Below, one piece after another: positions 53,204-64,000 of a stretch of 64,000 bases of DNA. Position 1 is the stretch's first letter, and each line of letters begins with the position of its first letter. The position numbers and the translations under genes were made by a program. Below the pieces are notes generated by a model, which saw only the letters and a program-made list of their open reading frames with translations, ran no database searches and was not told the DNA's origin. The stretch comes from Parvularcula mediterranea (GTDB lineage: Bacteria > Pseudomonadota > Alphaproteobacteria > Caulobacterales > Parvularculaceae): assembly GCF_013085255.1 (NCBI RefSeq), contig NZ_JABFCX010000002.1, forward strand, positions 858,501-922,500, written 5' to 3'.

Positions 53204-54151
53204 ATGACCGACCAACGCCCGCTTGATGTGCCTTGGGACAGGAAGCCTGAACCCGAAGAGGTGATGCATACGGATGGCCTGAGCAGCAAGCGCGCCATCG
53301 TCACCGGCGGCTATTCAGGCATCGGTCTTGAGGCAGTGAAAGCCCTCGCCGGTCAAGGCGCCCAGATCATCGTTCCTGCGCGAAGCCGTCAGAAGGCGGA
53401 GGAAGCGCTGAGCGGGATCAAAGGTGTCACCGTCGCGGACATGGACCTTGCCGATATCGCCAGCGTCAGGAAGTTCGCTTCGGACATCGGCGGCCAGCCC
53501 CTCGACCTCCTCATCAACAATGCGGGGATCATGGTCCCGCCCCTCGAAAGAGTTGGCCCCGGGTGGGAAAGCCAGTTCGGCATCAACCATATGGGTCACT
53601 TCGCTCTGACGACGGAGCTTCTTCCTGCGCTCAGGAAAGCTGAGGCGCCGCGGGTCGTTGCCCTCTCCTCCCTCGCACACCGGAGGACCGGGATCATCTG
53701 GGATGACCCCCATTTTAACGACCGGCCCTATGACAAGTGGGAAGGGTACGGACAGTCCAAGACCGCCAACGCTCTCTTCGCCCGCGCGCTCGACCAGCGG
53801 GAGGAGAGCATCAGCGCTTACTCCGTGCACCCCGGCGGAATCATGACCGACTTGCAGCGTAACATGCCCAAGAAGGAGCAGATCGCCATGGGCTGGCTCA
53901 ACGAAGACGGCACCATTCCCGAAGCTGTCGCCGCCTTCTTCAAATCTCCTGCGCAGGGGACGGCCACGACCCTTTGGGCGGCGACCTCTCCGATGCTGGA
54001 AGGTCATGGCGGGGTCTATTGCGAGGATTGCAACATCGCGGCCCTCGCGCCGGATGATGACCAGGGGTTCTTCGGCGTCAGGAGCTGGGCCTGTTCGGAC
54101 GACGAGGCCGATAAACTCTGGCACCTCTCCGAAAAGCTGCTTGCAAGCTGA
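53204..54151 (+). CDS. Short-chain dehydrogenase/reductase (retinol dehydrogenase-like)
   Basis: A 315-residue SDR. NAD(P) motif [28 protein letters not shown] (NNAG), catalytic Ser in [12 protein letters not shown], and Tyr-x3-Lys in [13 protein letters not shown]. Mid-helix [18 protein letters not shown] is typical of the WWOX/retinol-dehydrogenase-like subfamily that acts on hydrophobic alcohols or ketones. ATG 53204 has GGAGGAT upstream; the frame extends upstream into phoH but this start matches homologues. It sits between phoH and ybeY, which are adjacent in most Alphaproteobacteria. Confidence 0.93.
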
Positions 54152-54176
54152 CACCACTCCGGCGAGAGGCGCGCGG

Positions 54177-54650
54177 GTGAACATCGACATCATCATCGCG
54201 GACGAGGCCTGGGAGCAGCTGAGCCCCCAGGCCCTCGCCGACCGCAGCTTCTCCGCCGTCAGGGAAGAGACGGGCGACCCGGCCCTTGAGCGGGTGGTCT
54301 CGGCGCTTTTCACCTCAGACGCTGAAGTCCAAGCCCTCAACCTCGAGCACCGGGGCAAGGACAAGCCCACAAACGTGCTGTCCTTCCCTTCCGACGAAAT
54401 TCCCGGCCTGCCTGAAGAGCACCAGCCGCTCGGTGACCTGGCGCTCGCCTACGAGACCTGCGCTCACGAGGCGGAGGAAAAAGGGATCACTGCCGAAGCC
54501 CACACGACGCATCTTATCGTTCATGGTCTTTTGCATCTCCTCGGCTATGATCATATCTCGGAGGACGAGGCGGAGATCATGGAAGATCTCGAACGCCGAA
54601 TTCTCGCGCGTCTCGGGATCGGCGACCCCTATGCCGAACCGGGCCAGTGA
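54177..54650 (+). CDS. ybeY: Endoribonuclease YbeY
   Basis: A 157-residue metallo-RNase of the UPF0054 family. The zinc site H-x3-H-x5-H is seen in [15 protein letters not shown], and the family element [13 protein letters not shown] precedes it. It acts in 16S rRNA 3' maturation and 70S quality control. The start is GTG 54177, preceded by GAGAGG, and overlaps nothing. corC starts the base after its stop. Confidence 0.97.
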
Positions 54651-55622
54651 ATGGAGACGACCATGCCCGACGGCTCTGAGCCGTCTCAGTTTGCCGCCGA
54701 AGCGGCGCAGGCTGACAACGACCCCAAAGACCGACAGGAAACCCCCGCTGCAGACCGCGGCGGGTTCAAGCTCGGCACCTTGTTCCGAAAGCGAAACGGT
54801 AACGGCCACACCGAAGGCCAGACCCAGGTGAACGGCCAGAACCGTGACCTGAGCGCCACTGAAAAGGCGATGATCGAGCGCGTCCATGCGCTTGAGAGCG
54901 TGCGCGTCGGAGACGTCGCGATCCCCCGCGCCGACATTATCGGCATGGATGTCGATGGCTCGATCAGCGATGCGGTGTCCGCCTTCGCATCGGCAGGCCA
55001 CTCGCGGCTCCCGGTCTATCGTGGCGATCTCGATGACCCGATCGGGTTCATCCATATCAAGGACGTGGTGACGGAGCTCTCCAAAGGTCCGGCGACGGCC
55101 GAAGCCGAAGAGGACGCCAAGAGCGACGAGCAGCCCTCGGCGCTCGAGCCTCTCGTCAGGAAGCTTCTCTACGCTCCGCCCTCCATGCCAGTGGCCGATC
55201 TTCTTCTCAGGATGCAGGCCCAGCGGATCCACATGGCCCTCGTCATCGACGAGTTTGGCGGTACCGATGGCCTCGTGACCATCGAGGATCTGATCGAGGA
55301 GATTGTCGGCGACATTCGCGACGAGCACGACGTGGCCGAGGAAATGCGCCTGCGTCAGACCCAAGGCGGTCGCTGGGACAGCGACGCAAGGGTTGAACTC
55401 GATGCTCTGGCTGAACGTCTTGATGTCGACCTGCGGCTTGAAGACGAGGACGCCGACACGCTCGGCGGTCTGGTCTTCAGCCTTTCAGGGAGGGTGCCCC
55501 TGCGCGGTGAGGTGATTGTCCATCCTGATGGCCATGAGTTCGAGATCGCCGAAGCTGATCCCCGCCGGGTCCGACGGGTGCTCATCAAGCTCGCGCGCAG
55601 CCAGGAGCAGGCACCGGCGTGA
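54651..55622 (+). CDS. corC: CorC/TlyC-type CBS-domain protein
   Basis: A 323-residue cytoplasmic protein. A polar, low-complexity N-terminal ~85 residues precede two CBS domains (VGDVAIPRADIIGMDVDGSI... and PLVRKLLYAPPSMPVADLLLRM...) and a C-terminal CorC_HlyC domain (~230-320, GLVFSLSGRVPLRGEV). The middle has MALVIDEFGGTDGLVTIEDLIEEIVGDI, the standard CBS/CorC linker. CorC-type proteins regulate Mg2+/Co2+ efflux. ATG 54651 follows the ybeY stop at once. Its stop overlaps the lnt start (GTGA). Confidence 0.94.
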   Translation: METTMPDGSEPSQFAAEAAQADNDPKDRQETPAADRGGFKLGTLFRKRNGNGHTEGQTQVNGQNRDLSATEKAMIERVHALESVRVGDVAIPRADIIGMDVDGSISDAVSAFASAGHSRLPVYRGDLDDPIGFIHIKDVVTELSKGPATAEAEEDAKSDEQPSALEPLVRKLLYAPPSMPVADLLLRMQAQRIHMALVIDEFGGTDGLVTIEDLIEEIVGDIRDEHDVAEEMRLRQTQGGRWDSDARVELDALAERLDVDLRLEDEDADTLGGLVFSLSGRVPLRGEVIVHPDGHEFEIAEADPRRVRRVLIKLARSQEQAPA

Positions 55623-57244
55623 CGAGGGCTGAGAAGCTCCGCGCGGGGCTCTTATCCATCGCGGAGCTTTCAGGCTGGAACCGGCTCTTGGTGGCGGCTG
55701 GCTTTGGCGCGCTGACGGCCATGTCGTTTGCCCCGCTAAGGCTCCTGCCGATGCTGGCGATAGGGCTCTCGGGGCTTACGATCCTGCTTCATGGCTCGCT
55801 TTCCAAGAAGAAGCCGCTCTGCTCGGCCTTCTGGACCGGCTCAGCCTTCGGCACCCTCTATTTCGCGGCCGGAATGTTCTGGCTGGCCAATGCCTTTCTT
55901 GTTCAGGCAGATGCTTTCGCGTGGTTGATCCCCATCGTCCTGCCGCTCTTCTTCTTCGGTCTTGGGCTGTTTTTCGCCCTGTCAGGGCTTGGCAGTGTCT
56001 GGGCCGTCAGGCGGTTCGGGCTGTCTGGCCTGCCGGCGCTCGTGCCCCTGATCCTTCTCCTCGCGGTGACCGAATGGCTGCGCGGGCATATCCTCACGGG
56101 GCTCCCCTGGAACCTCTATGCGCAAGGGACCGCCGGGTGGGGCGTCCTCCTCCAGCCGCTCGCAGCGTTTGGGCCTTATGCCTATGGGCTCGTTCTTGTG
56201 GCTCTGAGCCTTGTGCCAGCAGCGATCGTTTTGAACCCGTCACGGACGAGGCGAACCGCCACTCTCGGCGCGGCAGGGCTTGGCGCGATCATTCTTTTCG
56301 GCGGCCTGAGGCTGACGCTCCTCGCGCCAGAGCTCCGGGACGATACCCAGATCGTCGTCGTCCAGCCGAGCGTTCCCCAGCGGGACAAGCTCGACGCCCA
56401 GAAGCGGGTGGAGGGCCTAAGGCGCACCCTCGACATGACCGAGGCGGCCGCAGCACGGCTTGAAGACGGCAAGGCCATCTTCGCGATCTGGCCTGAAAAC
56501 GCCTACCCGTTCATCGCCCGCATCCCTGAGCTTTCGGGCGCTTTGTCTGATCGGCTGCCCGCCCAGAGCTATGTCGTCACCGGCTCGATCAGGGCGACGG
56601 AGGATGGGGGTTTTGCCAACACCTTCCATATGTTCGGGCCGTCCGACGGCGGTGCGCCGCTGGCGGCGACCTATGACAAGCACCGGCTGGTGCCGTTCGG
56701 AGAGACCCTCCCGTTCTACTCCGTCTTTGAGGCGCTCGGCATCGAAGCCCTGAGCCCTGTGGGGGATGGAGGGTTCACGCCAGGGACAGGGCCAGCGCGC
56801 ATCGACGGGGTGCCAGCGCCGTTTGCGCCGCTCATTTGCTATGAAGATGTCTTCCCGGGCACCCTCTATCCCAAGGGCGAGCGGCCCGAATGGCTGGTCG
56901 TCGTCACCAATGATGCGTGGTTCGGCGACGCAGCCGGGCCGATGCAACACCTTGATATCGCTCGCATGCGGGCGATCGAGACCGGGCTTCCCATCGCGAG
57001 GAGCGCCAATACTGGCATCTCCGCAGTCATCGACAGCGAAGGCCGGGTCCTCGACACCATTCCGCTTTACACCCCCGGAACGATCACCTCGGCGCTGCCT
57101 GTTGCGCGGCCCCCTACACTCTATACACGTGCTGGCGACTTGATCTTTTGGGCGATGGTGAGCTTTATCGTATTGATGGTCTGGCGAACCGGCCCACAAG
57201 TGGCGATTGAAAAGGTCAACCATACCGCGTCAGGGGAACGATAG
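55619..57244 (+). CDS. lnt: Apolipoprotein N-acyltransferase
   Basis: A 541-residue inner-membrane enzyme that adds the third acyl chain to lipoproteins. About seven N-terminal membrane segments are followed by a nitrilase domain (~240-500) with the catalytic triad visible: Glu in WPENAYPF, Lys in YDKHRLVPFGE, Cys in PLICYEDVFPG. The final membrane helix is at ~510-525. The start GTG 55619 overlaps the corC stop by 4 bases. It completes the ybeY-corC-lnt group, and the XRE regulator gene begins 4 bases after its stop. This fits with the many lipoproteins encoded here. Confidence 0.96.
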   Translation: MTRAEKLRAGLLSIAELSGWNRLLVAAGFGALTAMSFAPLRLLPMLAIGLSGLTILLHGSLSKKKPLCSAFWTGSAFGTLYFAAGMFWLANAFLVQADAFAWLIPIVLPLFFFGLGLFFALSGLGSVWAVRRFGLSGLPALVPLILLLAVTEWLRGHILTGLPWNLYAQGTAGWGVLLQPLAAFGPYAYGLVLVALSLVPAAIVLNPSRTRRTATLGAAGLGAIILFGGLRLTLLAPELRDDTQIVVVQPSVPQRDKLDAQKRVEGLRRTLDMTEAAAARLEDGKAIFAIWPENAYPFIARIPELSGALSDRLPAQSYVVTGSIRATEDGGFANTFHMFGPSDGGAPLAATYDKHRLVPFGETLPFYSVFEALGIEALSPVGDGGFTPGTGPARIDGVPAPFAPLICYEDVFPGTLYPKGERPEWLVVVTNDAWFGDAAGPMQHLDIARMRAIETGLPIARSANTGISAVIDSEGRVLDTIPLYTPGTITSALPVARPPTLYTRAGDLIFWAMVSFIVLMVWRTGPQVAIEKVNHTASGER

Positions 57245-57248
57245 ACAC

Positions 57249-57719
57249 GTGGATAGCAAGCGCACGACAGCACAGAGTAAGCGCGGCCCTCACCCGATCG
57301 ACGTCCATGTCGGAAGCCGGGTCCGCCTGCGCCGCATGATGCAGGGCATTTCGCAGGACAAGCTCGGCGAAGAGCTCGGCCTGACCTTTCAGCAGGTCCA
57401 GAAGTACGAGAAGGGCGTGAACCGTATCGGTGCCAGCCGTCTCTATGAGATTGCGCGGATCCTTTCGGTCCCGGTTCAGTTCTTCTACGACGATTACGGC
57501 GATGGTCCGGAGACGCTGATCGGCTTTGCCGAGACCCAGCGGAACCTGTCGGGCGGCAAGGACGACCGCGCGGATTTCCTTGCGACCCTGTCGACGCCCG
57601 AGGGTATGCAGCTCTGCCGCGCCTTCGCGAAGATCAAGGACTACCAGGTCCGTCGGAAGGTCCTCGACCTCGTGAAGACGCTCGGTGACGAGGTCGACGA
57701 GGGCTCGGAAAAAGGCTGA
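57249..57719 (+). CDS. XRE-family helix-turn-helix regulator
   Basis: A 156-residue regulator with a Cro/CI helix-turn-helix at ~12-70: HVGSRVRLRRMMQGISQDKLGEELGLTFQQVQKYEKG, in which SQDKLGEELGLTFQQVQKYE is the DNA-binding core. The C-terminal half is helical (LCRAFAKIKDYQVRRKVLDLV). This is the small regulator normally found between lnt and metK in Alphaproteobacteria. Start GTG 57249 follows the lnt stop by 4 bases. In this genome metK is 5.8 kb further on, with putA, an esterase and a flagellin between. Confidence 0.93.
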   Translation: MDSKRTTAQSKRGPHPIDVHVGSRVRLRRMMQGISQDKLGEELGLTFQQVQKYEKGVNRIGASRLYEIARILSVPVQFFYDDYGDGPETLIGFAETQRNLSGGKDDRADFLATLSTPEGMQLCRAFAKIKDYQVRRKVLDLVKTLGDEVDEGSEKG

Positions 57720-57815
57720 CGTCTTAACGCCGATCACGCTTCCGCCACTTCGGGAGACAAAGCGGTTGAGACCTCCTAGGGAACCCCTGCCTTTTGAGGC
57801 AGTGGAGGTACCTTG

Positions 57816-60800
57816 ATGCTCGATTATCGCCCGCAAAGCCTTGGCTTTTCTGAGCCTTACGCCGAAGCAGACGAAGTCGTCGTTCCCCGCCTGATGCTCG
57901 CCGCGAGAAGCGCTGATCGGGCCCATGGCCAAGCGACAAGGGTCGCTTCGACCCTGATCGACGGGATCAGGCACAGGACCCGCGGCGGCGCGAACCTTGA
58001 TGCGTTTCTGCGCGAATATGGCTTGTCGACCAAGGAAGGCCTCGCCCTCATGGTGATGGCCGAAGCCCTCCTCCGCGTGCCTGACGCCAAGACCCAGGAC
58101 CGGCTGATCGAGGACAAGATTTCCGCAGGCGACTGGGTCAGCCACGAGAAAAAATCGGACTCCATGTTCGTGGCGGCGGCTGCATGGGGCCTCGGCCTCA
58201 CCAACCGGGTGATCCGCCCCGGCGAGACCCCGCAGAACACCCTCCAGAACCTCGTGAAGCGCCTCGGCATGCCGACGGTCCGCATGGGCGTCAGGCAGGC
58301 GATGGGCTATCTTGGCCACCAGTTTGTCCTTGGGCAGACGATCGAAGAGGCCCTCAAGCGTGCCCGCAAGGAAGAGCGTCAGGGCTACCGCTTCAGCTAC
58401 GACATGCTCGGCGAGGGTGCACGGACGACCGCCGATGCGGATCGCTACCTCACCGCCTATCACGAGGCGATCGAAGCCATCGGCAAGGCGCCGGGCAATG
58501 ACGAGCCCGGCGCACGCGGTATTTCGGTGAAGCTTTCGGCGCTCAATCCGAACTATCACCCGCGCCACTGGGACGACGCGGTTGCAGACCTTGCGCCGAA
58601 ACTGTTCGAGCTTGGCAAGGCTGCAAAGAATTACGACCTCAACATGACCGTGGATGCCGAAGAGGCCGAGCGGCTGGAGATGTCCCTTGATGTCATCCGC
58701 CGCGTGTACACGGATGATGCCCTGTCAGGCTGGGATGGCTACGGCCTTGCGATCCAGGCCTACCAGAAGCGCGCCATGGCCGTCTGTCAGTGGGCTGCCG
58801 ACCTCGCCGAAGAGCGTAGCGGCCGCATGATGGTCCGCCTTGTCAAAGGCGCCTACTGGGACACCGAGATCAAGCTGGCCCAGCAGGCGGGCATCCCGGA
58901 CTTTCCTGTCTTTACACGGAAGGCTGCGACGGACCTCTCCTATATCGCCTGTGCCTCGAGGCTCCTCGATGTGGCGCCTCGGCTCTATCCGCAGTTCGCA
59001 ACCCACAATGCCCTCACCTGCGCGACCATCATCGAGATGGCCCACGCGAAGGACAGCCCTCAGGACTTTGAGTTCCAGCGCCTCCACGGCATGGGCGAGA
59101 GCCTTTATGAGCAGATCACGGAGGAAGGCATCCTGACTGAGCGCGGCGAGGAGAAGTATCCCTGCCGTATCTACGCACCCGTGGGCGGGCACCGGGACCT
59201 TCTCGCCTATCTCGTCCGTAGGCTGCTGGAAAACGGGGCCAACAGTTCCTTTGTGGCCCAGGTCCATGACGATACCGTGGCCGATGACAGGCTGCTGGAG
59301 CAGCCTCGCCCACGCCTTGAGCGGCTCGGCGGTTATCGCCATTCGTCGATCAAGCGCCCAACAGAAATCTTCGGTGAGCGAACCAATTCTGCTGGTCTCG
59401 CATTCGGCGATTCGGTCGCCTTGACTGATTTGATGCGGGGAATGGATGGCGCCGACCTTGAAGGCCTCAACGTCGCCTCGATCATCGGTGGCGAAGACCG
59501 TCCGGGCCCTGAGGAAAGGGACCTTCTGAGCCCCAATGACAGCCAGCCCATCGCGAAGCTTTCCGAAGCTGACGAACGCATGGCCCGCGAGGCGGTGGAC
59601 GTGTCGGCGCGCGGCTTCCGCGAATGGAACGAAACCCCGCCTGAGGCTCGTGCCCTGGCGCTTGAGCGCGCGGCGGACCTTCTCGAAGTGAACCGCGACA
59701 GGCTGATGGCGATCCTCGCCAAGGAAGCCGGCAAGAACCTCGAAGACGGGATTGCCGAGATCCGCGAGGCGGTCGATTTCTGCCGCTTCTATGCCGCCGA
59801 AGCGCGACGCCTCTTCCAGCCTCAGCCTCTTCCAGGGCCCGTTGGTGAGGAGAACCAGCTGCGTCTTGAAGGACGCGGCGTCTTTGCCGTTATCTCGCCG
59901 TGGAACTTCCCGCTGGCGATCTTCCTTGGACAGACGACTGCGGCCCTCGCCGCAGGCAATGCCGTCGTGACCAAGCCGGCCGAACAGACCCCTCTTATCG
60001 CGCAGGAAGCTGTCCGCATCCTGCATGAGGCTGGCATCCCTACTTCTGCCTGCCAGCTCCTCCTCGGCGACGGCAGAGTCGGCAAGGCGATGCTGGATCA
60101 TGAAAAGATCGCAGGCGTGGTCTTCACCGGCTCCACGGAGGTTGCCAAGCTCATCCAACGTCAGCTTGCGGAGAAACCTGGCCCGATCCTGCCGCTCATC
60201 GCGGAAACGGGCGGGGTCAACGCCATGGTGGTCGATGCAACGGCACTGCCCGAGCAGGTCACCGACGATGTGGTCGCCTCGGCCTTCCAGTCCGCAGGCC
60301 AGCGATGCTCGGCTCTTCGCGTTCTTTACGTGCAGGAAGATGTCGCTGATACGATGCTCAAGATGATCATTGGGCGGACGAAAACGATGAAGCTTGGCGA
60401 CCCGGCTCTCGCCACGACCGACATCGGCCCCATCATCGATGAAGAGGCACGGAGCAAGCTCGCCAAATATGCGGGTAGCCGCGAGGGCCTCGTCTACAAA
60501 GGCGATGCGCCGAAGGAAGGCACCTTCCTCGCGCCCCATATCTTCGAACTTGGCGATGAGGAAATCCTCGAGCGGGAGCAGTTCGGCCCGATCCTCCACG
60601 TCAAACGCTTCAAGGCCGGCGAGTTTGATCGTGTGCTGAAAGAAGTTGCCTCAACAGGCTACGGCCTCACCTTTGGCATCCACACGCGGATCACCGAGGT
60701 GGCCCAGCGTCTGGCTGAGGAAGCGCCCGCGGGCAATGTCTACGTCAACAGGAACCAGATCGGCGCCATTGTCGGCTCCCAGCCGTTCGGCGGCATGGGC

Positions 60801-60932
60801 CTCTCGGGCACGGGCCCCAAGGCGGGCGGCCCGCATTACCTCCTCCGCTTCGCAGAGGAGCGCGTGATCTCCACCAACATCGCGGCGGCAGGGGGCAATG
60901 CCTCGCTGATCGCGATGGAGGATACGGAGTAA
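57816..60932 (+). CDS. putA: Bifunctional proline dehydrogenase / L-glutamate gamma-semialdehyde dehydrogenase PutA
   Basis: A 1038-residue bifunctional enzyme. Residues ~75-440 are the FAD-dependent proline dehydrogenase barrel (SYDMLGEGARTT, RGISVKLSALNPNY, VRLVKGAYWDTEIK, ATHNALTCATI). Residues ~510-1010 are the aldehyde dehydrogenase half (VISPWNFPLAIF, VVFTGSTEVAKLI, catalytic Cys in QSAGQRCSALRVL). Proline is oxidised to glutamate. It lacks the N-terminal ribbon-helix-helix of trifunctional PutA, so it is of the short, non-repressor type. GGAGG with a 7-base gap before ATG 57816 decides the start. A small hairpin (57787-57802, CTGCCT/AGGCAG) sits directly before the ribosome site. Confidence 0.97.
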   Translation: MLDYRPQSLGFSEPYAEADEVVVPRLMLAARSADRAHGQATRVASTLIDGIRHRTRGGANLDAFLREYGLSTKEGLALMVMAEALLRVPDAKTQDRLIEDKISAGDWVSHEKKSDSMFVAAAAWGLGLTNRVIRPGETPQNTLQNLVKRLGMPTVRMGVRQAMGYLGHQFVLGQTIEEALKRARKEERQGYRFSYDMLGEGARTTADADRYLTAYHEAIEAIGKAPGNDEPGARGISVKLSALNPNYHPRHWDDAVADLAPKLFELGKAAKNYDLNMTVDAEEAERLEMSLDVIRRVYTDDALSGWDGYGLAIQAYQKRAMAVCQWAADLAEERSGRMMVRLVKGAYWDTEIKLAQQAGIPDFPVFTRKAATDLSYIACASRLLDVAPRLYPQFATHNALTCATIIEMAHAKDSPQDFEFQRLHGMGESLYEQITEEGILTERGEEKYPCRIYAPVGGHRDLLAYLVRRLLENGANSSFVAQVHDDTVADDRLLEQPRPRLERLGGYRHSSIKRPTEIFGERTNSAGLAFGDSVALTDLMRGMDGADLEGLNVASIIGGEDRPGPEERDLLSPNDSQPIAKLSEADERMAREAVDVSARGFREWNETPPEARALALERAADLLEVNRDRLMAILAKEAGKNLEDGIAEIREAVDFCRFYAAEARRLFQPQPLPGPVGEENQLRLEGRGVFAVISPWNFPLAIFLGQTTAALAAGNAVVTKPAEQTPLIAQEAVRILHEAGIPTSACQLLLGDGRVGKAMLDHEKIAGVVFTGSTEVAKLIQRQLAEKPGPILPLIAETGGVNAMVVDATALPEQVTDDVVASAFQSAGQRCSALRVLYVQEDVADTMLKMIIGRTKTMKLGDPALATTDIGPIIDEEARSKLAKYAGSREGLVYKGDAPKEGTFLAPHIFELGDEEILEREQFGPILHVKRFKAGEFDRVLKEVASTGYGLTFGIHTRITEVAQRLAEEAPAGNVYVNRNQIGAIVGSQPFGGMGLSGTGPKAGGPHYLLRFAEERVISTNIAAAGGNASLIAMEDTE

Positions 60933-61034
60933 GCTGGCCTCCTCGCGCCTTCGTGTGGTTTCATCGCGGCGAATTCGGTGCCACAAGCTGGCTCTCGCGT
61001 GTTGCAGAGTATCAGTGAGCGCCGGAGGACCGCG

Positions 61035-61886
61035 ATGGACCGGGGGGACCTTGAGAAGCATATAGCCGCGCACCCGGTGAAGGGTGCGCCCGCCCTGATG
61101 CGCGAGGCCTTCGAAGCGATGGCCCGGCCCGCCACCGTTGATGTCCCGCAGGGCCGGTGCCCAGGCATCCAAGGCCTGGACGGGCTCCTCTTTGGCGAAC
61201 ATGGCGGCGCCCCGATCCTCTTCCTTCACGGCGGCGGCTTTGTGTTCGGATCACCTGAGAGCCATGCAGGCCTTGCGTCGGTTCTCGCCAAGCATAGTGG
61301 CCGCGATGTCCTGGCGCTTCGCTATCCGCTTGCTCCGGAAGCCCTTTGGCCCCGGCAGAAGAATGCCGTCCTCGACGCCATCGACCGCATGTCCGATGCC
61401 TATGGCTACGCTCCCGCACTGGCTGGGATCAGCGCAGGCGGCCAGCTGGCGTTGATCGCCGCGACGGAGCGGGTGCTTGAAGCCGTGGTCGCCTTCTCGC
61501 CCAACACCGCGCGAGGCGACGCTCGCGCCTCAAGCCGCAGGGCCAACGCCGAGGCTGACCTGATGAACGATCCGGAGATGGATGCGCGCCTCGCAGACAT
61601 GGCCATCGGCGAGGAAGAAGCGGGTGATCCCGACCAGAACCTCGCCCTGCGCGATCTGTCCCTCCTCCCGCCCTGCTACCTGTCCGTGGGCACGGGCGAG
61701 GTCCTCCTCGATGACAGCCTGATCTTCGCCGTCGAGGCTGCGCGGGCAGGTGCGCCCCTCACCCTTTCGACGCGGGAGGGTTTCCACATGGAAGAACTCT
61801 TCGCCCCCGTCTTCGCTCCGGGAGAGGCAAGCATCGCCCGCGCTGCCGCATGGCTCAGCAGCGGGAATACTCCGAAGGCCGACTAG
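61035..61886 (+). CDS. Alpha/beta hydrolase, hormone-sensitive-lipase-like
   Basis: A 283-residue cytoplasmic esterase. The oxyanion HGGG motif is in LFLHGGGFVFGSPESHA, the nucleophile in LAGISAGGQLAL (GISAG), the Asp in VGTGEVLLDDS and the His in REGFHMEEL. This is the HSL/family IV arrangement, acting on short-chain esters. ATG 61035 follows GGAGG; an in-frame start 57 bases upstream lacks a ribosome site. The stop TAG shares the palindromic CTAG with the flagellin stop on the other strand. It is downstream of putA by about 100 bases. Confidence 0.92.
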   Translation: MDRGDLEKHIAAHPVKGAPALMREAFEAMARPATVDVPQGRCPGIQGLDGLLFGEHGGAPILFLHGGGFVFGSPESHAGLASVLAKHSGRDVLALRYPLAPEALWPRQKNAVLDAIDRMSDAYGYAPALAGISAGGQLALIAATERVLEAVVAFSPNTARGDARASSRRANAEADLMNDPEMDARLADMAIGEEEAGDPDQNLALRDLSLLPPCYLSVGTGEVLLDDSLIFAVEAARAGAPLTLSTREGFHMEELFAPVFAPGEASIARAAAWLSSGNTPKAD

Positions 61887-63352
61887 TTGAAGAGCGTCAG
61901 GATCTGGCTCTGGGACCTGTTGATGATGCCGAGGTTTTGGAGCGCGAGCTGTTCTTGGACCTGCACCGCCTGAAGCCTGCTGGAGGCTTCTTCGAGATCA
62001 GCCTCGACAAGTGCTGACACGGCAAGATCAAGTCCGCCGGTCAGGTCGCGAAGATATGTGTCCTGACGGTCGATCAGCCGGTCATAGGCACCAAGCTGGC
62101 TCTGGTAGATCGAGAGCCGCGAGCGCACCTCTTCGATGATCTGCATCGAATCTTCCGGAGCCAGACGAATGGCAGAGGGATTGACCAGCGTCAGGAGCTC
62201 ATAGATCCCTGCGGACGCCCGACGCTCGGCCCCGAACTCAGCATCGGTGAAGTAGGGAAGGTCCGAACCGCTGATCGGCGTGGGCGGCGGAAGCGGGGTT
62301 GCCGCCGAGGGCTCCGACGGATCCCCTTCGATGAACTGGATGCCGTCGATGGCCGTGCCATCTTCGCGCCCCCAGATATTGAGCGTGTAGATCCCCGGCG
62401 CCGCAATATCGACAAAGACCCGCGCACCGCTCAGCGTGTCCCTGGTCCCCCAGCCGCCGCCATTGGGGATTTGCACGCCGCCCGTGCCGGTCAGCACATT
62501 GCCGTCGAAACCCACATGGATACTGTCGCCAGCAGGCGCGACACCGATGCCCCGGACGTTGACGTAGTAGCGTCCCGGCGTGTTCACCTGCACGCGATAG
62601 TCAATACGCGGAGCATAGGCGAGAACGTCCGATGGGTCCCTGTAAAGGTCCGTCCGGCTGCCAGGTGAGGCGTCCGCGAAGAAGTCGTCCACTCCATCTT
62701 CTTCCCAGACCATGAAGCCTTCGAGTGCGCCTGTCCCGGCGACCCATTCATTGACCAGACCATCGCCCCGACCGATCGCTGTCTCGCGGCTGGTGAAGTT
62801 CTCCGCATTGATGACGAACTCGCCGTCCAGCTCTTCAAGGCCATCAAAGAAGCTGTCCCTGAGGAAGTCGCCGCCCGCCAGGCTGAGCGTTCGGAAGTCG
62901 AACCCCGAGCCTGAGCGATCGAGCCCGATCACCGATGTGGAGATATCGGACTGGGTGAGAAGGTTCGTACCCTGAAAGCTTGAGGCGTTGATGGTGTCGC
63001 GGAACTGCTTGAGGATTTCGCCAAAGACGATGTCCTGTTCCTCGATGGCGATCCCCGTCTGCGCCGTGGGGACGAGGTCGTAGATCTGCTCGACGAGCCG
63101 GTTGAGTTCTTCGATGCCTGCATTGGCTGCACCGATCGCGCCCTCCACGACCGTCAGGTTCTCCCGCAAGCCGGAAAGGACGGTGACGTCGCTCCGCGTC
63201 TTCTGCGAGACGAGAAAGAAGGCTGGGTTGTCATTGGCTCCCCGGACCTTGAGCCCCGTGGAGATCTGGGCGCGCACATCTTCGCCAGCGCTCTGGACCG
63301 CGCGAAGGGTCCTGAGCGCCGTCTGGACTGACGAGATGTTCCCTAGCCCCAC
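61883..63352 (-). CDS. Flagellin with inserted carbohydrate-binding-like domain
   Basis: A 489-residue flagellin (498 if GTG 63379 is the start). The N-terminal D0/D1 coil is clear: GLGNISSVQTALRTLRAVQS, AQISTGLKVRGANDNPAFF, and SSFQGTNLLTQSD. The C-terminal D1/D0 coil ends VQVQEQLALQNLGIINRSQS and TLF. Between them, at about 62324-62821 (~165 residues), is an insert unlike normal flagellin variable regions. It has FVINAENFTSRET, DYRVQVNTPGRYYVNVRG, DSIHVGFDG, GGGWGTRD, and IAAPGIYTLNIWGREDGTAID followed by GIQF. That sequence of elements matches the galactose-binding-like beta-sandwich of CBM6/35 and GH115 C-terminal domains. A Pro-rich linker (PLPPPTP) follows. No other flagellar gene is near. 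GTG 63352 is preferred because it gives MGLGNISS, like other flagellins. Confidence 0.9.
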   Translation of the reverse strand: MGLGNISSVQTALRTLRAVQSAGEDVRAQISTGLKVRGANDNPAFFLVSQKTRSDVTVLSGLRENLTVVEGAIGAANAGIEELNRLVEQIYDLVPTAQTGIAIEEQDIVFGEILKQFRDTINASSFQGTNLLTQSDISTSVIGLDRSGSGFDFRTLSLAGGDFLRDSFFDGLEELDGEFVINAENFTSRETAIGRGDGLVNEWVAGTGALEGFMVWEEDGVDDFFADASPGSRTDLYRDPSDVLAYAPRIDYRVQVNTPGRYYVNVRGIGVAPAGDSIHVGFDGNVLTGTGGVQIPNGGGWGTRDTLSGARVFVDIAAPGIYTLNIWGREDGTAIDGIQFIEGDPSEPSAATPLPPPTPISGSDLPYFTDAEFGAERRASAGIYELLTLVNPSAIRLAPEDSMQIIEEVRSRLSIYQSQLGAYDRLIDRQDTYLRDLTGGLDLAVSALVEADLEEASSRLQAVQVQEQLALQNLGIINRSQSQILTLFN

Positions 63353-63494
63353 CAACGATGAACGCTCCCACGCGGACACAGCTTCCCGGGATTTTATATC
63401 GCCCAGAGGGGTGGAGAACTGGTGAAGATACCCCGTCTCGATGCATCGAATGCCTTGCCAGCCTGCCGCACGGGCGACATAAGGATTTCTTTAT

Positions 63495-64000
63495 ATGCCG
63501 ATCCAAGAGGGCCAGCCCGTGACGCGCCAAGACTACATCTTCACCTCGGAGAGTGTTTCCGAGGGCCATCCGGATAAGGTTTCCGACCGCATCTCCGACG
63601 CCATCGTTGACCTGCACCTCTCCAAACAGCCCGAGGCCCGCGTGGCTGTGGAGACCCTGACCACCACCAACCGGGTGGTGCTGGCCGGTGAGACGCGCTG
63701 TGAGCCGGGCGTCTCGGCCGAAGAAATGATCGAGACGGCGCGCGGCGCCATCAAGGCCATTGGCTATGAGCAGGACGGTTTCCACTGGAAGGACGCATCG
63801 ATCGAATGCCACGTCCACGGCCAGTCGACCGAGATCGCGATGGGCGTCGATGCCGGTGACGACAAGGACGAGGGCGCTGGCGACCAGGGCATCATGTTCG
63901 GCTTCGCCACCGACGAGACCGAGAGCCTGATGCCTGCCCCGATCGCCTTCAGCCACGCCATTGTCGGCGCACTGGCGGATGCTCGGCACAAGGGCAGCGA
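63495..64000 (+). CDS. metK: S-adenosylmethionine synthetase, 5' part
   Basis: The first ~168 codons of MetK, running off the right edge. Motifs: [24 protein letters not shown] (ATP-binding HPDK), [18 protein letters not shown], and [18 protein letters not shown] (the GDQG loop). It makes S-adenosylmethionine from methionine and ATP. ATG 63495 has AAGGA nine bases upstream. No known SAM riboswitch pattern is seen in the 142-base region shared with the divergent flagellin gene. Confidence 0.97.

Follow-up and report, generated by a model that had tools for sequence, protein, structure and literature searches.

The window analysed here is a stretch of 64,000 nucleotides from the genome of Parvularcula mediterranea, and near its end lies a flagellin gene with a swapped variable region (61883–63352, minus strand). 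The ORF is open throughout (61883–63379, −), and the predicted start, a GTG at 63352 that was picked from the alignment with relatives, gives a protein of 489 aa. Both D0/D1 ends are intact, as the preliminary description had stated. On the N-terminal side, the translation P0001 matches Flagellin_N (PF00669) over residues 19–143 (62951–63325, −), with E = 1.6e-11 and 44.9 bits against a curated Pfam cut-off of 26.6, and on the C-terminal side it matches Flagellin_C (PF00700) over residues 412–497 (61889–62146, −), with E = 3.8e-8 and 34 bits against a cut-off of 23. Besides these two, the only Pfam match at E ≤ 10 is GH115_C. The 489-aa protein contains no cysteine, which is compatible with export of an unfolded protein. 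A FlgL identity was considered and rejected: NCBIfam favours the flagellin model PRK12687 (E = 1.8e-21) over flgL (E = 4.7e-6), both below their curated cut-offs, and the genome has a separate FlgL-type ORF.

On the plus strand, an alpha/beta hydrolase gene (60978–61886; Abhydrolase_3, E = 3.7e-26) converges on the flagellin gene, and the stop codons of the two overlap by 4 bases (61883–61886). The divergent neighbour is an ORF at 63495–63998 (+), which, judged by eye, we take to be the start of the S-adenosylmethionine synthetase gene (metK). No further flagellar genes were noticed beside the flagellin in the listed stretch from 54000 to 64000. The best sigma-54-like promoter upstream of the gene is not above chance, with 99 of 200 shuffles equally good; the same search upstream of 12 flagellin genes gave one unusual case (466 aa; 12 of 200 shuffles equally good).

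Between the flagellin ends lies an insert of 167 residues (62318–62818, −; residues 179–345 of the 489), assigned by AlphaFold2, Foldseek and an independent profile to the GH115_C/CBM35/CBM6-type beta-sandwiches. These limits nearly coincide with the insert of about 165 residues (178–343, nt ~62324–62821) proposed before, and the sequence motifs quoted for it are all present in the order given. A proline-rich linker, SEPSAATPLPPPTPISGS, leads back to the flagellin core (62264–62317, −); it is recognized in the sequence and forms the low-confidence end of the structural model, whose last block has a mean pLDDT of 70.

Pfam alone gives the insert a weak match to GH115_C (PF17829; E = 0.0086–0.0096, 16.4 bits), below the gathering cut-off of 24.1 bits, which relatives of the domain do pass (L059 with 34.6, L062 with 33.2 and L058 with 47.6 bits). 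Of 85 domains found, 76 passed the length and score filter and 72 entered the alignment A2 (L095, L099, L105 and L109 were left out), which together with the window copy, L057:7538-8068 and the truncated L055:2-298 comprises 75 rows. GH115_C is matched at E ≤ 0.01 by 73 of these 75 aligned domains, CBM_6 by 4 and CBM_35 by 1. The profile search that the preliminary description had suggested bears out its assignment: an independent profile, made from 64 relatives with every Parvularculaceae row left out, scores the window flagellin at 88.5 bits (E = 1.7e-23, Z = 1e6). Among 2000 shuffles of the insert the highest score was 7.6 bits, and five other flagellins of the window's genome scored between −1.1 and −0.2 bits; the profile reported no match in the genome's 546-aa flagellin, FlgL-type protein or 559-aa coiled-coil protein. 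The similarity of the insert to the GH115_C-like superfamily is more than chance. Against PDB sequences, the A2 profile aligns over two short stretches with a chain of 8zvk (E = 3.8e-5), and it also finds the CBM35 module of 2vzp (E = 2.5e-4); its match to 4zmh is weak (E = 0.064). A phmmer search with the insert itself against the PDB yielded nothing beyond a hit to a subunit of complex I that looks like chance (E = 0.032), and NCBIfam had no match for the insert.

The predicted structure agrees with the sequence profile. With the 74 relatives of A2 aligned, AlphaFold2 models the segment 62291–62818 as a confident beta-sandwich (pLDDT 88.2, pTM 0.85), with its lowest-confidence spot at residues 50–52; a single-sequence model of the whole flagellin (pLDDT 38.4) was set aside and the insert folded with A2 instead. 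Foldseek finds 55 matches in the PDB at E ≤ 0.001, headed by the GH115 alpha-glucuronidases 4zmh (E = 2.2e-6) and 6nps (E = 2.8e-6), followed by CBM35 (2w1w, 2w47) and then CBM6 and related modules; one row, 2vzr, describes the CBM35 of 2vzp as solved with glucuronic acid. The CBM35/CBM6 chains have a probability of 1.00, E-values of 5e-5 to 1e-3 and TM-scores on the query of 0.41–0.52; for the best-ranked match this score is 0.57, with 6.1 A rmsd and 15% identity. As far as the model goes, the resemblance to PDB structures is one of fold class and is not close. Flagellin D2/D3-type outer domains occupy the same position in the chain, and such an ordinary outer domain was also considered for the insert and rejected: at E ≤ 10, P0001 has no match to Flagellin_D3, Flagellin_IN or the FliC families, and no flagellin appears among the 50 PDB matches listed by Foldseek. 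The galactose-binding-like fold of the CBM6/CBM35/GH115_C kind that had been proposed is thus what both profile and predicted fold return. Together they support the view that the insert forms an entire module of the GH115_C type, within the CBM6/CBM35 class of beta-sandwiches. It shares with the GH115_C of GH115 alpha-glucuronidases (4zmh, 6nps, BoAgu115A) the family profile and the best fold matches; it differs in standing within a flagellin and not behind a catalytic domain, in its score below the gathering cut-off and in the change of a Glu-x-Glu motif and of Trp-87. With CBM35 and CBM6 (2w47, 2vzp, 5fui, 2cdp), the modelled insert would have in common the beta-sandwich, the opening and closing strands and a role in displaying sugar-binding loops, but identity in the fold matches is just 9–16%.

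When 84,980 species genomes were scanned by pattern, the domain turned up at 56 loci, in many phyla and also in archaea; the scan detects only copies holding one of two conserved peptides, so that absence elsewhere is not proven. Five of the 56 loci encode flagellins according to our own flagellin profiles, every one of them in Parvularculaceae: one in Parvularcula lutaonensis, two in P. maris and two in the isolate DT_81, one of these being cut by a contig end. The homologues that the preliminary description proposed to count in other Alphaproteobacteria do exist, and they are few. Within the order, the domain occurs in 6 of 398 genomes at E ≤ 1e-4, and in flagellins in 4 of the 398, all of the window's genus; among 385 genomes drawn from the class, 2 have it at E ≤ 1e-8, and one of these is the window's own. 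The remaining two genomes of the order carry it in open frames of 2116 aa (L058), with cadherin, PA14 and RTX repeats in Pfam, and 2558 aa (L060), which resembles the former as judged by eye only. These giant surface proteins hold the nearest non-flagellin copies of the module, at 36–42% identity, but they are multi-domain adhesin-like proteins and not filament subunits.

The 13 Parvularculaceae copies are monophyletic in the tree of 77 domains (99/95): 8 come from flagellins, 3 from coil proteins and 2 from giant surface proteins. Six flagellin inserts cluster together (100/95); the truncated seventh, from DT_81, falls with the giant surface proteins (97/88), and a long-branched flagellin copy from P. 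maris is weakly placed (88/81). The flagellin label requires two changes on the domain tree, in which L069 and L107 are the two most bent rows and have long branches. This arrangement, whose key row is only 99 residues long, suggests that the module may have been swapped between flagellins and surface proteins. The coil proteins, L117:6481-7779 (−) in the window's own genome, L059:5422-6840 and L062:5404-6669, have 422–473 aa and carry the CBM-type module between helical-looking ends, which match neither the Pfam flagellin families nor our own flagellin profiles. Their module domains form a clade of their own (100/99), and it is possible that they make a separate filament or a secreted protein.

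The flagellin core tells something about the likely stoichiometry. Between species, core identity is 55–67% for the CBM flagellins, 61–71% for LamG-like flagellins and 88–94% for ordinary flagellins, the comparison being made between nearest copies and not proven orthologues, because orthology among the CBM flagellins is unsettled. Such fast divergence of the D0/D1 core makes it more likely, from sequence comparison, that the CBM flagellin is an accessory rather than the main filament subunit. It therefore appears doubtful that the filament displays thousands of copies, as proposed earlier. Eight Flagellin_N matches lie above the cut-off in the genome, and between species the core varies much more than in ordinary flagellins; the protein may be a minor subunit. 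The ratio of insert identity to core identity is 0.66–1.11 in the CBM flagellins (13 between-species pairs), and 0.57–0.82 in the ordinary flagellins of the same four genomes. Unlike a usual variable region, the CBM insert is conserved about as tightly as its own core.

Flagellins with a swapped domain are already known, and the CBM-type insert is a further variant. In the flagellinolysins, as described in the available part of PMC5595980, the variable region can be an enzyme; a foreign functional domain sits between intact D0/D1 ends, with a scattered, domain-swapped distribution, as in the window protein. The difference is that flagellinolysin is a peptidase active on filaments (PMC5595980), whereas the window insert appears by its sequence to be a non-catalytic CBM-type module; the HExxH metallopeptidase motif was not seen when the flagellin translation was read by eye. 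The same survey, in its available part, counts 61 types of domain in the variable regions of flagellins; vWFA and sialidase belong to the ten most frequent, and a word search of its main text finds neither "carbohydrate" nor "lectin" (PMC5595980). Our literature search found no description of a CBM-type flagellin; the full 61-domain supplement of PMC5595980 lay outside its scope and may mention one.

We think that the most probable reading, at roughly 0.55, is that a GH115_C-type module on an accessory flagellin shows a glycan-binding module on the filaments and helps the cell to hold or sense polysaccharide. The CBM flagellin would leave the cell through the flagellar secretion system and be incorporated into filaments beside the ordinary flagellins at a minor stoichiometry. 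The filament would thereby display the putative glycan-binding module in the surface-exposed variable region, and the cell might use this module to sense polysaccharide surfaces or matrix, or to hold on to them, presumably by adhesion. Flagella are known to adhere and, to our knowledge, the part that binds is rarely a recognizable glycan-binding fold.

The residues of the insert bear on this reading from both sides. W123, W149, R151, E152 and S99 are kept in all 7 flagellin rows, R89, D98, H101 and D153 in 6 of 7, and W25 in the 6 rows that have letters there, so that the flagellin inserts retain polar and aromatic residues that are conserved across surface proteins from many phyla. From these residues, the tight conservation of the insert relative to its core and the modelled fold, we infer that the insert may bind glycan. 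Two other positions have changed. The Glu-x-Glu of the first strand, which we take to be the structural metal site of the CBM6/CBM35 class, has Glu in 57 and 61 of the 64 other rows; the window reads N-A-E there, and sister flagellins R-A-N or others. The conserved Trp at insert position 87, present in 56 of the 64 other rows, is Asn in 5 of the 7 flagellin rows. Because of these changes, the ligand and metal sites of the insert may be altered, and the same changes agree with another role, which we consider rather unlikely, in which the insert would be a structural outer domain that pairs along the filament, as a sheath or screw surface, and tunes stiffness and swimming with no glycan involved. 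According to the available part of PMC8931119, outer domains of other flagellins do dimerize or tetramerize and modulate motility. The related beta-sandwich at the C-terminus of BoAgu115A contacts the other chain and lines its xylan cleft, and the available part of that paper does not mention stand-alone binding by this domain (PMC3879575). The retained polar and aromatic residues argue against a purely structural domain, as does the fact that the inserts are nearest kin to the domains of giant surface proteins and not to flagellin D2/D3.

It is similarly improbable, in our opinion, that the CBM flagellin is no longer a filament subunit and acts, after export by the flagellar or another route, as a loose or cell-surface adhesin. 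The rapid change of the core and the position of the gene away from flagellar genes would fit this, and the same genomes hold both a flagellin-derived coiled-coil protein of 559 aa and the coil-domain-coil proteins with the same module and no flagellin match. Nevertheless, both flagellin ends score above the Pfam cut-offs and the typical C-terminal helix is kept. That the module is a leftover which neither binds nor has a structural role, drifting among the genome's many redundant flagellin copies with their fast core, is very improbable, since the frame is open, the insert is as conserved as the core across four genomes and the family residues are retained.

Domains of this kind serve enzymes and adhesins in holding sugars, and one in the outer part of a flagellin suggests flagella that may grip polysaccharides. 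If the insert binds sugar, the filament would be a long, multivalent lectin, and the fast and apparently modular exchange of heads within one genus would offer a natural system in which to study the grafting of export-compatible domains on flagellins. The CBM flagellin could then serve as a ready natural scaffold for displaying carbohydrate-binding domains.

The genomes with CBM flagellins have a rich flagellin repertoire. At E ≤ 0.001, Flagellin_N is matched 9, 8, 7 and 11 times in the four of them, FlgL-type proteins and fragments included, against 1–3 times in the six remaining genomes of the genus. Variable regions of flagellins in the four include GH115_C/CBM-type, LamG-like (concanavalin A class), DUF642 and RTX beta-roll modules, and giant surface proteins of the same order also hold several of these head modules. 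In the window's own genome, the flagellin L116:7222-8997 (+) (contig 1, ~762221-763996) has a variable region with an RTX beta-roll (HemolysinCabind, E = 6.1e-15) and sits directly upstream of the second CBM flagellin. The flagellin L136:1684-3042 (−) of isolate DT_81 carries a DUF642 insert (E = 2e-8, above the cut-off). A conserved locus in three of the genomes is formed, according to Pfam, by a pseudouridine synthase, an OmpA family protein, a flagellin slot and a short-chain dehydrogenase; the slot contains RTX plus CBM flagellins, a CBM flagellin alone or two CBM flagellins. It is conceivable, and we put it forward tentatively, that the flagellins of the clade are interchangeable binding heads and their flagella composite, multivalent fibres that read polysaccharides, with tethering second to swimming.

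The 546-aa flagellin of the window's own genome, L114:2762-4399 (+), and its relatives L129, L130, L132, L138, L052 and L137 have a LamG-like insert of ~220 residues. In the eight-member alignment A3, which includes this flagellin, Laminin_G_3 is matched weakly in 3 of 5 members tested (E = 3.8e-4 to 2.4e-3, below the cut-off), the own-genome member not being among them; the A3 profile also matches two open frames, of 1596 and 2806 aa, from two further genomes in the order. Three further genes, L116:11799-13475 (+), L056:8119-9726 (+) and L046:8586-10001 (+), encode proteins in which a long coiled-coil middle follows an N-terminus like that of flagellin, and they adjoin the CBM flagellin locus in three genomes. 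The window genome's copy (559 aa) has no match to Pfam Flagellin_N and is recognized by our own Flagellin N profile at 1.9e-14.
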